DNA from: Petasospora fabianii
Taxonomy: Eukaryota; Ascomycota; Saccharomycetes; Phaffomycetales; Wickerhamomycetaceae
Reading direction: 5' to 3'
Length of the DNA: 64,000 nucleotides
NCBI GenBank assembly: GCA_022641835.1
Contig: CP048717.1
Span: 930,001 to 994,000, forward strand
Shown here one piece after another: positions 1,271-54,042 of the stretch (position 1 is its first letter; every line of letters begins with the position of its first letter). The notes under the pieces are model-generated. The model had not been told where the DNA came from. It ran no database searches and worked only from the letters and a program-made list of their open reading frames with translations. Both the position numbers and the translations under genes were made by a program.

Positions 1271-1701
1271 TGTCTAAATTGCGTTGCTGCTGCCGGTACG
1301 TGACGCACGAGGTTAAACCTCGTTATCGTGTGCTGTCTGTTGATCAGCTGAACTCCGGAGGTAGGTGTGTGTCCCCTGCCAGACATCTTTTAGATCACGT
1401 GCAGCGGTTATGAGCGCGCGATGCCGCATCGAACGACAGGCTGCTCAACAAAAAATCAAGCGCCCTCCCACTCATCTTCACCAGGGCGGTTTTTGCCTCT
1501 TCTACTACCGCTCCATCTCTACCGCCGTGCTCGTTTTTGGGTATTACATCTCTTTCTGTAAAAGTTTCACTCACTCCACCTTCTACCTCTTCCTCCGCCT
1601 TGTCCCGGTCCCCTTTCCCCTTTTGGCAGCGTCGTCCTTCGGTCTTCGTTATCACCCCCTGATCTATCTATCCCACCCACACGCATACACATACACACAC
1701 A
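1271..1701. promoter_or_regulatory. Divergent promoter between the C6 factor and SCT1
   Basis: This stretch holds no convincing gene. It contains a TCACGTG E-box at 1395-1401, the Cbf1-type consensus, and a long pyrimidine-rich tract at about 1455-1640 leading to the SCT1 start, typical of yeast 5' leaders. Frames here open only from non-ATG codons. Confidence 0.5.
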
Positions 1702-46948: not shown

Positions 46949-48539
<1,591 letters not shown>

Positions 48540-48966: not shown

Positions 48967-50476
48967 TTACTTGAAGACCTTACCGTCAGCAACCTCTCTA
49001 ACCTCACCGTTGATGCTCAATGGCTTGTCCCAAGCGAAGACATCCTCAACAAAGGTCTTGTCCTCTGGCTTGGAAGCATCCAACTGCTTGAACTCGTAAG
49101 ACTCCCAGTCTGGAGCAACGTCGAAGGCTGGCTCGTGTTTGTCACCTCTGACGAGGAAGACAGCGACGATACCGTTGTTGTTGTTCTCACCGTAGACGAT
49201 ACCAGAACCGAACAAGTACTTGGTAGAAGCGGAAAGACGGTTGAAGAAACCACCGAGCAAGTTGTTGGACATGAAAGTCAAAGTCAACTCGTCGTTGTAT
49301 TTGTAGTCAACTCTCCACAAGGACCACTCAGTTGGGTCGTAGTGCTCCCAGAACCATGGAAGAGCAGTCTCTCTGGTCTCCTCGTTGGAGTACTTTCTCT
49401 TCCACTCGTCCAAGTCGAACTTGGTGGCCTTACCAAGCAACTCCAATGGGTGCTTTGGCTTCTTGACCTCAGCGTCTGGAGCTGGGGCAGCAGCCTCAGC
49501 AGCCTTCTTTGGAGCGGCAGCAGCCTTTGGCTGCTCCTTCTTCTCCTTCTTTGGTGGAGTGTACTCGACTGGCTTCTCAATGAACTTGGTGTCCTTGATA
49601 GCCTCCAAAGCTGGGTGCTGGATGACAGTCTTGAACCATCTGACAATAGATGGGTGGGCAGATCTCCACTGCTTACCCCACAAGTAGTCGAAACCTCTGA
49701 CGGCACAGGTAGCAACGAACAAGTCAGCAAGAGTCAATCTCTCACCGGCAAGGTAGGTGTACTCAGATAGTCTCTTCTCAATAACAGAGGCAATCTGGTC
49801 AACAGCAGCGTTGGCGTCGGTGACCTGCTTCTTGTTGAATGGAGCCTTACCGATAACTGGCTTGAAAGCAGCAGCAATCTGTGGCAAAAGCTCAGAGGTA
49901 GCAAGAGACATCCATCTGATGATCTGGTGGTAGACGAGGTCGTTCTTACCGAGCAAAGACTTGTCCTCAGAGAGGGAGATGACTGTACAAGAATGTTAGT
50001 GGATGTTCCATTGAACAAATTGAACTGACACGTGGTTCAATGACCCAAAATTCTGATCCATTGGTAATCTTCAGAATAAAACTTCTCGACATAATGTGTT
50101 AAGACAGGGATAACTGTTTAAAAAATAATGGAGTATCATCATTGCAACTGGATTAGAGTTTCTTGGATCAATTGATTCACCTTCACAACTGAGATGGAGG
50201 GCGGACAAACGCACACCACTCATTTTAGAAGGCATTCACGAGTCAGTAACTAGCAATTGGGTAAAGAAAAAACTCACGGTGCAAGTTGACGGCAATGGCC
50301 TCAGTCAACTTGTAGCCCTTTGGACCAACAAAAGCTGGGAACTTGCCCAATGGGAAAGCCTTCTCGTAAGCAGCATCCTTCTCGGCGATGGTGACATCCA
50401 AATTAAGAGCCTTGACGAGACCCTGTGGCAAAATGCATCTGGCGAATGGACCGCCGTAAAGAGTACCCTGAGACAT
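48967..50476 (-). CDS. TEF4: Translation elongation factor eEF1B gamma, one intron
   Basis: Exon 1 is 50476-50278 (MSQGTLYGGPFARC..), the 295-bp intron 50277-49983 (GTGAGT, ACTAAC, CAG) and exon 2 49982-48967, giving 404 residues. The splice reads AVNLH-LISLSEDKS. The protein has a glutathione-transferase-like N-terminal half (thioredoxin fold to about 75, helical part to about 200), a Lys/Ala/Pro linker, and the C-terminal EF1G domain starting HPLELLGKATKFDLDEWKRKYSNEET. It is the gamma subunit of the GDP/GTP exchange complex for eEF1A. S. cerevisiae has two copies, TEF4 and CAM1; TEF4 is chosen because it has an intron carrying snR38, as seen here. Confidence 0.95.
50066..50148 (-). ncRNA. 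snR38: Box C/D snoRNA, snR38-like, in the eEF1B-gamma intron
   Basis: On the minus strand, box C ATGATGA (50142-50136) and box D CTGA (50074-50071) lie 61 bases apart inside the intron. Between them CAGTTATCCCTGT (50116-50104) is perfectly complementary to 13 bases of the 25S rRNA peptidyl-transferase loop (ACAGGGAUAACUG). It ends directly before a degenerate D' box CTTA. The D'+5 rule points to the second G of GGG, which is yeast G2815, the known target of snR38. snR38 is intronic in yeast TEF4. TAATC/GATTA outside the boxes could form the closing stem. Exact ends are estimates. Confidence 0.85.
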
Positions 50477-50816: not shown

Positions 50817-52100
50817 ATGTCTGCAACAGAGCCTGCTTCAACCGCTCCGAATATGCCTGCAGAGAAGGAGAAAAAGAGACCAAGACCCTTGGATCTTAAC
50901 CGTTCAAACTTGACCCCCGGTGATGGAGACAAGGCCATGAGCGAGTTCGCTATCAAATGTGTCAGTCCAGGACTTCCACCACTCAGCGCTAAGATGAGAT
51001 CCACTGTGTTGATGTCCAAGACTATTGAGGCACAACAGCGCCACATAATTGCTCAAAGAATAGCAGCTACGACTCCTGGCGAACGAGAGAATGATAAGAC
51101 CGGGGGGGAGAATGACGATGTCTCCGTGACCCCATCCACATCGGGCCTGACAAATCATATGGAGGACCTTTCAATCCCTTCATCAGTCACATCTAACAAA
51201 CGTCTCAAACGTGATAAGGTACCCTCCCCGCTCAATCTAGGATTGGCCAATGGCGCACCAAGACCACTTATCAAGTCCGCACCAATCTACAATGTTCGTC
51301 CCCAGCATTTCACACCATCTACGGCAAGGCGTGCTACATTTAGAAAAGGGCCACCAACTGCCGGTCCGGGTCTTTCATCACATCGTGCTCCACCTGGGGT
51401 ACAAATTCGTGGAAGACCAATGATGACTCCACTGACACCACACGACAGCACACTTCTCGGAAGACAGATGCCAACCTCCGCATACCCATACCCTCGTCCA
51501 CAGACTTCTACAGTGGCTCATTTCGGCCGTCGTGCTGTGCCAAAGACAGCAACTACTCTTAGAAATCCATCATCATACCGAACTGGTCCACCGATCACAC
51601 ACCAACAAATGGCACGTTATCAACAACAGCTCGCATACCAACAACACCAATGGGCCAAGTTTAAGCAATACCAAGATACACAGAAAGTGAGTCATGTGAC
51701 TGATGTCTTCCAAGGGGAAGGGACAAGATTCGCTCCATTGGAGGCCCAGCCACTCAGTGCTCAGAGAAACTTTTTTGACCTAGAAAGTGGTCCTATCAGA
51801 CCACAAGTTATCTCTGCTGGTAAGAGAAACAAGAAAAAGGATAGAATCACTGAGGAGTCCGGGGATGAAAATGTGAATGATGATGACGATGGCGATGATA
51901 AAGATGACCCAGAAAGTGCTGCAATTGAAGAAGATGCCGAAGTCGGTACTACTTTGCAGTTTGATGGGAAAGTTTCTGGTGCTTTAAAACTTGGGAACAA
52001 TATCTTCAAGTTTGATCTAGAGAGATATGGATCTACGGACAAAGAGAGATTCCTGAAGCACTGTGCTGCCGCTTGGGACCAATTTGCTAAGATTCCATAA
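50817..52100 (+). CDS. Protein of unknown function (427 residues)
   Basis: I do not recognise this gene. The ATG at 50817 opens a basic, Pro-rich N-terminus with KKRPRPLDLNRSNLTPGD. Next comes a compact-looking block, SPGLPPLSAKMRSTVLMSKTIEAQQRHIIAQR (about 50-82), which looks like a conserved helical motif. The middle is disordered, with Arg/Pro-rich and Gln-rich stretches, then an acidic run (NDDDDGDDKDD) at about 353-365. The last 45 residues (TLQFDGKVSGALKLGNNIFKFDLERYG..FLKHCAAAWDQF) look folded and are likely a second conserved module. No membrane segment or signal peptide is seen. It is probably nuclear or cytosolic. No function is assigned. Confidence 0.85.
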   Translation: MSATEPASTAPNMPAEKEKKRPRPLDLNRSNLTPGDGDKAMSEFAIKCVSPGLPPLSAKMRSTVLMSKTIEAQQRHIIAQRIAATTPGERENDKTGGENDDVSVTPSTSGLTNHMEDLSIPSSVTSNKRLKRDKVPSPLNLGLANGAPRPLIKSAPIYNVRPQHFTPSTARRATFRKGPPTAGPGLSSHRAPPGVQIRGRPMMTPLTPHDSTLLGRQMPTSAYPYPRPQTSTVAHFGRRAVPKTATTLRNPSSYRTGPPITHQQMARYQQQLAYQQHQWAKFKQYQDTQKVSHVTDVFQGEGTRFAPLEAQPLSAQRNFFDLESGPIRPQVISAGKRNKKKDRITEESGDENVNDDDDGDDKDDPESAAIEEDAEVGTTLQFDGKVSGALKLGNNIFKFDLERYGSTDKERFLKHCAAAWDQFAKIP

Positions 52101-52383: not shown

Positions 52384-54042
52384 TCACAATGTCTTGGACA
52401 TGAATGGTCCGTCGAGCTCATAACCGAGTCTTGCATAGTAGTTTCTGACACCAACACCACTGATCACACTGATCTTCTTGGAACCATGCTCCTCTCTAGC
52501 AATTCTCTCTGCCTCTTCCATCAAAAGTGTACCGAAACCTTGATGCTGGAACTTTCTTGGATCCCTAGAGTGCAAAGGCACAACAGAGCCATAAACGTGC
52601 AACTCTCTAACGATAGAGGTAGGTTGTGACTTGAACTCCTTTCTGTATGTGTGCTTCTTGGAGGCCTTTCTCAGACGCAAGAGACCAATGAGGATGTCCT
52701 GTTTCGGATCCTCATAAGACAAAAATGTCTCCCAGCCACCATTGGCATAGTAGTCTCTTCTAATAAGCTCAACTTGGTCAGGCTGAACCTTATGATGTAC
52801 CTCCTGGATTCCAACTTCTCTTGTTCTGACATCACGACACTTGGTACCGAAGTCTTTCATTCTGGCAAGGGCCAACTCTCTAAGGTTACCGTTCTCGACA
52901 CCAGAGGACACAAGTGGCATTGGAATATCTCTCTGAACTCTGTAAATTCTTGTCCATGGTGGAACCATAGCCAAAATTCTTGCAACAAGGTCAATCAGAG
53001 CATTGGCGTTGTATGATTTGTATCTCCCTGTCTTCCATAATTCGTAAAGACCAGTACCTCTGATAACCAAAGTTGGATAAATCTTCAATCCATCTGTTCT
53101 GAAATCAGGGTTCTCAAAGTATTCCCTAAACTGAGCCAAGTCTCTCTCCATGCCAACGTTAGGCAAATCTGGCATCATATGACTGACAATTTTGTATCCA
53201 GTATCCTTTGCAACAGCAAACGTCTCACACACAGACTTGACTGTGTGACCTCTGTTTGTATCTCTTGCAACATCTTCAAACACACTCTGCACACCAATCT
53301 CCAATCTCGTACACCCATAACGTAGCATATCATCCAAATGCGTTCTTGTACAGTAATCTGGTCTCGTTTCGATCGTGATACCAACACACTTGGTCAAGGA
53401 CTGCTGCGAGTACTTGATGGCCTGATCAAGATCCTTACCGTTGTAACCCGACAACGCATTGTGCAGCTGTGTGATAAAGTCCTCACGATACTCCTTATCC
53501 AAAGACATGAAGGTACCACCCATGACGATGTATTCCACCTTATCGACGGAGTGACCGAGCTGCTTTAATTGCTCAATACGGCCTCTGGCCTGCTCGTAGG
53601 GATCATAACGTGCTCTGATGGCTCTCATGGATGTTGGTTCGTAACCTGTGTAAGACTGTGTGGAGTATTCGAAATCAGAATCTGGACCACCTGGACAGTA
53701 GACACAGATGTTTCCTGTGAAGGAGATGTGTGGACATCTGTGTGGTTTGGACATGACGGCAACGACACCGACACCGGATGCTGTACGCACGGGCTTGGCT
53801 TTAAGCTTTGGAAGCAAATACTTCTTGTATTGGTCTGGAATTGCATTGATGACATCTGTGAGACGTGGCTGAGCCTTAAGTTTATACTTCTTGGAGTTCT
53901 TGGTGATCAGACCGTTGAGGTTGATCTCTTTAGAAGTCTTGAGGGAGTCGATGAGCTCAAGCGTGATATCGGCGCAACACTGGAGGAAGCGCTCCTTTTC
54001 CGGAGCAAGTTTTGGCTTACTCTTCACAACACCGACAGCCAT
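52384..54042 (-). CDS. ELP3: Elongator catalytic subunit Elp3
   Basis: This 552-residue protein (557 in S. cerevisiae) is the catalytic subunit of Elongator, which adds cm5 side chains to wobble uridine in tRNA using acetyl-CoA. The radical-SAM domain has Cys103, Cys113 and Cys116 ([14 protein letters not shown]) for the 4Fe-4S cluster, then [24 protein letters not shown]. The C-terminal GNAT domain (about 400-550) has [21 protein letters not shown] for acetyl-CoA binding and ends [18 protein letters not shown]. The ATG at 54042 matches the family start. It is very highly conserved and nothing is missing. Confidence 0.98.

Follow-up and report, generated by a model that had tools for sequence, protein, structure and literature searches.

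The TEF4 intron of Saccharomyces cerevisiae hosts snR38 (PMC2705663, PMC3454408), which is listed as the guide of 25S Gm2815, a site modified over 85% (PMC8307265), and which is also linked with nucleotide 2815 in PMC8527467. A preliminary description of a locus of the yeast Petasospora fabianii had proposed an snR38-like snoRNA in the intron of an eEF1B-gamma gene. We wanted to know whether this intron indeed encodes snR38, whether the RNA would select the same rRNA nucleotide, and whether the host gene and the intron site are those of S. cerevisiae. Our analyses indicate that the intron almost certainly encodes, on the reverse strand, an snR38 orthologue that would guide methylation of the equivalent of 25S G2815 and would be produced via the spliced and debranched host pre-mRNA. 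The features are collected in Table 1; the window is the whole stretch of DNA that was analysed (64 kb), and positions refer to it unless a contig is given.

Table 1. Features of the snR38 locus and of two other intronic snoRNA loci of P. fabianii
Feature	Position	Strand	Basis and remarks
eEF1B-gamma (TEF4/CAM1-like) exon 1, coding part	50278..50476	-	Domain and PDB matches
Host intron, 295 nt, phase 1	49983..50277	-	5' splice site GTGAGT, branch A 49996 in CACTAAC, 3' splice site ACAG
eEF1B-gamma exon 2, coding part including stop	48967..49982	-	Domain and PDB matches
Predicted external stem, 5' arm	50145..50185	-	Interrupted; 32 predicted pairs in stem
snR38 box C/D snoRNA	50064..50145	-	RF00213, 52.2 bits
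Box C ATGATGA	50136..50142	-	Sequence
D' guide CAGTTATCCCTGT	50104..50116	-	Sequence; same as family consensus; 13-nt complement of presumed 25S ACAGGGAUAACUG
D' box CTTA	50100..50103	-	Sequence; aligned to consensus CUGA; one change from CTGA
Degenerate C' box TGTCGA (consensus UGauGA)	50086..50091	-	Alignment; the label C' is our reading
Candidate second-guide stretch GAGAAGUUUUAUU, for pairing to rRNA/snRNA			
Box D CTGA	50071..50074	-	Sequence
Predicted external stem, 3' arm	50026..50063	-	Same fold prediction as 5' arm
U18-like snoRNA	L002 1475..1539, contig C9 near 308775	-	Intron of eEF1B-alpha (EFB1/TEF5-like) gene
U24-like snoRNA	L034 ~1501..1587, C1:2007630-2007716	+	Intron of ASC1/RACK1-like gene

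Joining the two predicted exons yields a frame of 404 amino acids (gene 50476..48967, reverse strand), whose product matches Pfam EF1G (E=8e-44) and contains GST domains as well. Among PDB chains, this protein is most similar to 1nhy_A, titled "Elongation factor 1-gamma 1" (E=6.3e-59), and 1pbu_A ("Elongation factor 1-gamma"); the former we take to be S. cerevisiae Tef3p. As judged from its predicted protein, the host gene is that of eEF1B-gamma. The 5' splice site of the intron, at 50277..50272 on the reverse strand, is GTGAGT, whereas the two further introns of this genome that were inspected have GTATGT. Searches of the entire genome (12,335,623 bases in 16 contigs) returned one match for EF1G and one for the snR38 family RF00213, both counts being lower bounds because the search scores just its best candidates. 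S. cerevisiae, in contrast to the one eEF1B-gamma match found here, carries two such genes, TEF3 and TEF4.

The host gene is flanked by a gene of the Anp1 family (47436..48539, forward strand) and an ELP3-like gene with ELP3_N, radical SAM and acetyltransferase domains (52384..54042, reverse strand); the open reading frame between the host and the ELP3-like gene (50817..52100, forward strand) gave no Pfam match. Four CTG codons are present in the ELP3-like gene. At least some of them presumably fall at leucine positions, going by the conservation of ELP3, which argues against placement in the CTG-Ser clade.

To be assigned to snR38, the RNA should score at least the gathering score of the family in a covariance search, a check that the preliminary description had proposed. 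In the Rfam search of the window against 4227 families, the snoR38 model matched over its whole length (1-91) with 52.2 bits versus a gathering score of 45 (E=7.2e-6), and the proposed snR38-like snoRNA is thus borne out. Only four matches in the window exceed their cut-offs, the other three being tRNAs; up to E=1 there is one extra match, mir-297, which lies far under its cut-off. Several families gave weaker matches overlapping the snR38 match (SNORD78, TtnuCD17, Afu_328, snR79, snR54 and U30), each below its own cut-off, and were rejected. The identity of the RNA as snR38 is therefore supported by a curated covariance model that scores over its cut-off. The family is well known and the species is new to it: the P. 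fabianii RNA is a typical yeast version of snR38.

The boxes can be read directly from the sequence. Box C, the 13-nt guide, the CTTA box D' and box D were all found where the preliminary description had placed them, and boxes C (ATGATGA) and D (CTGA) conform to the RUGAUGA and CUGA of box C/D snoRNAs. The span from box C to box D is 72 nt, and the guide (50116..50104) abuts the D' box. The family consensus ACAGUUAUCCCUGUCUGA aligns with ACAGUUAUCCCUGUCUUA in the window, and both have a C five nucleotides upstream of D'. Because both the spacing between guide and D' box and this C match the family consensus, the same target G is predicted. Selection of the G2815 equivalent by the D'+5 rule, as proposed earlier, is thus supported by the family-like spacing, and the guide is complementary to ACAGGGAUAACUG, the presumed 25S target segment. 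We predict that the D' guide targets the equivalent of S. cerevisiae 25S Gm2815. The D' box had been described as degenerate, and indeed it differs by one change from CTGA; this sets the RNA apart from the RF00213 consensus, with CUGA, in a comparison in which S. cerevisiae snR38 is the closest system. The yeast site is numbered Gm2812, not 2815, in PMC3511168. We take this as a numbering offset, because the site of snR67 differs likewise (2616 in PMC3511168 versus 2619 in PMC8307265).

Screening the genome for rDNA with an exact 22-base pattern, the 5.8S family and a 183-base 25S query, the last without a positive control, found none. The rDNA array may be absent from the 16-contig assembly. 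Contig C16, which is perhaps the mitochondrial genome, contains closely spaced tRNA genes, one of them with anticodon tca (14 of 30 tRNA loci scanned).

We then compared the intron site with that of TEF4, for which intron-deletion primers are listed in Table 3 of PMC2705663. Translated by eye, these primers encode ALAIQFY ahead of the intron and ANQVA, starting one codon later, behind it. They leave the exact base of the insertion within the codon unfixed, and the first G of the forward primer may be intronic. When placed via the 1nhy alignment (AMAINYYLVKLSQD), the TEF4 intron codon corresponds to AIAVNLH|LISLSED in the P. fabianii protein, so that the intron hosting the snoRNA lies at the homologous codon in both genes. 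Since TEF4 hosts snR38 and its primers put its intron at the homologous codon, the two yeasts have the host as well as the intron site in common, and the pairing of host and intron with S. cerevisiae TEF4 that had been claimed from the P. fabianii sequence holds. S. cerevisiae snR38 therefore resembles the RNA described here in its family (RF00213), its D' guide to 25S G2815, its eEF1B-gamma host and its intron codon. Common descent best explains the shared host, snoRNA and intron site. The excerpts of PMC8476143 and PMC4202332 that we consulted do not mention TEF4.

Could the boxes have come together by chance around an rRNA-like 13-mer in an AT-rich intron? Pairs of C and D boxes at such spacing are common: the window contains 15, versus a mean of 9.55 across 100 shuffles. 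The two boxes alone thus give no support; what carries the argument is the guide together with the covariance model. The window contains the 12-nt guide core AGTTATCCCTGT a single time, none of 100 dinucleotide shuffles contains it, and together with the E-value of the full-length covariance match this excludes chance, the boxes contributing nothing; the host and intron site, which are as in S. cerevisiae, also speak against it. We consider the probability of such an assembly negligible. The locus might instead be a decayed snR38, from which the RNA is not made or does not guide, with another locus or none serving the site. The CTTA of D', the TGTCGA of C' and the four of seven terminal-stem pairs that are non-standard would fit such decay, but the guide and both main boxes, C and D, are intact, the score exceeds the cut-off and this is the sole snR38 match found in the genome. 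Moreover, S. cerevisiae snR38 is itself among the snoRNAs whose predicted C'/D' misses one of two sheared pairs (PMC8413462), so that a degenerate C'/D' is normal for snR38. A relic is thus very improbable.

A functional snR38 would be compatible with a second guide, in which GAGAAGTTTTATT, located before box D, directs the RNA to another rRNA or snRNA site besides the G2815 equivalent served via D'. The preliminary description put this forward, the position of the stretch allows it, and N. crassa CD22 and CD24 each have two targets (PMC2780460). However, the rows for snR38 give one site in S. cerevisiae (PMC8307265) and in N. crassa (PMC2780460), and GAGAAGTTTTATT departs from the family consensus at several, mostly weakly conserved, places. 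We regard a two-site guide as unlikely.

A short terminal stem adjoining boxes C and D is usual, though not obligatory, in these RNAs, and some intronic snoRNAs do without one. In the snR38 match, four of the seven model pairs are non-standard. The intron sequences flanking the RNA are predicted to pair around it as an external stem, which would take the place of the terminal stem. With flanks of 48/48 nt, a length picked post hoc once the fold had been seen, the duplex has -28.8 kcal/mol versus a shuffle mean of -16.7 (sd 3.6), a fraction of 0.003 of 2000 shuffles being as good. The signal varies with the flanks chosen. For 23/26 nt it is weak in the duplex (fraction 0.044), and the constrained fold was equalled by 0.0805 of 2000 mononucleotide and 0.109 of 1000 dinucleotide shuffles; for 48/51 nt the fractions are 0.005 (duplex) and 0.026 (constrained fold; 1000 shuffles), and for all intron flanks 0.0133 and 0.0033, respectively (300 shuffles). 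Folded as a whole, the intron exceeds its shuffles in stability (z -2.6, 0.0067 of 300). The long flank pairing, together with the 5' splice site other than GTATGT, could make splicing depend on snoRNP assembly. We consider this quite improbable; if true, it would tie the output of eEF1B-gamma mRNA to that of the snoRNA serving the peptidyl transferase centre.

Two further snoRNA-host pairings known from S. cerevisiae were looked for in the genome. The U18-like RNA reached 32.6 bits over the entire model RF00093 (cut-off 41) and 23.7 bits over part of RF01159 (cut-off 47). It lies upstream of, and on the same strand as, an exon with an EF-1 guanine nucleotide exchange domain, and is flanked by GTATGT and ACTAAC..ACAG. 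The U24-like RNA, with 40.6 bits, is 0.4 bit short of the RF00069 cut-off of 41 and sits between two WD40 exons, the first of which has a generic WD-40 repeat protein (2ymu) as its top PDB match, followed by RACK1/ASC1 chains. U24 presumably belongs to ASC1 in S. cerevisiae. As both RNAs score under their Rfam cut-offs, their identities lean on position. When tested at 48 nt, the flanks of U24 gave a strong signal (0 of 2000 shuffles as stable), and 13 consecutive flank base pairs are possible from about 10 nt outside its boxes; those of U18 gave no stem signal (fraction 0.482). An external stem is thus predicted for two of the three intronic snoRNAs examined, snR38 and U24. In S. cerevisiae, snR18 (U18) belongs to TEF5 (PMC2705663). 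If U18 and U24 are read by position, all three S. cerevisiae snoRNA-host pairings tested are kept.

Expression, processing and methylation in P. fabianii would follow what is known of the family. The eEF1B-gamma pre-mRNA would be spliced and the intron lariat debranched, after which exonucleases would trim the debranched intron as far as the box C/D snoRNP, which would halt them. Stable RNAs of the box C/D class are bound by Snu13, Nop56, Nop58 and Nop1. Since box C to box D covers 72 nt, the mature RNA would be some 75-80 nt long. Its D' guide would base-pair with 25S ACAGGGAUAACUG, whereupon fibrillarin (Nop1) would methylate the 2'-OH on the second G of GGG; this G is equivalent to S. cerevisiae G2815, which lies in the peptidyl transferase centre. 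In Fusarium graminearum, the level of snR38 drops upon deletion of the debranching enzyme gene (PMC9606315), which fits release by debranching.

Other members of the family show what is shared more widely. Neurospora crassa CD23 is an snR38 homologue that is likewise intronic, guides from D' (to 26S Gm2773) and is 72 nt long (PMC2780460). AtsnoR38Y (Gm2805) and human snR38A (Gm4362) also belong to RF00213 and are guides for the equivalent LSU site, so that, per the listing, family and site are in common with the P. fabianii RNA; the plant, human and yeast members are placed among the C/D snoRNAs that date back to the last eukaryotic common ancestor (PMC3511168). The chicken homologue GGgCD64 is intronic as well (28S-G-3847), but it is recorded in intron 2 of ENSGALG00000001886, and the introns of chicken EEF1B2 house other snoRNAs (PMC2653536). 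Because the chicken RNA has another host gene record, host conservation is not universal. For the eight intronic snoRNAs of S. cerevisiae, PMC4202332 reports 64 of 84 cases in which, following whole-genome duplication, a single copy of the host retained both the intron and the snoRNA. As far as consulted, no mention of snR38 is made in the main texts of PMC5033589, PMC2926782 (both on Candida) or PMC3596301.

The main use of this finding is in the annotation of the P. fabianii genome, and it leaves the picture of snoRNA evolution unchanged. It adds another yeast in which snoRNA, host gene and intron site have stayed together, a retention that is expected where an intron persists on account of a needed RNA encoded in it.
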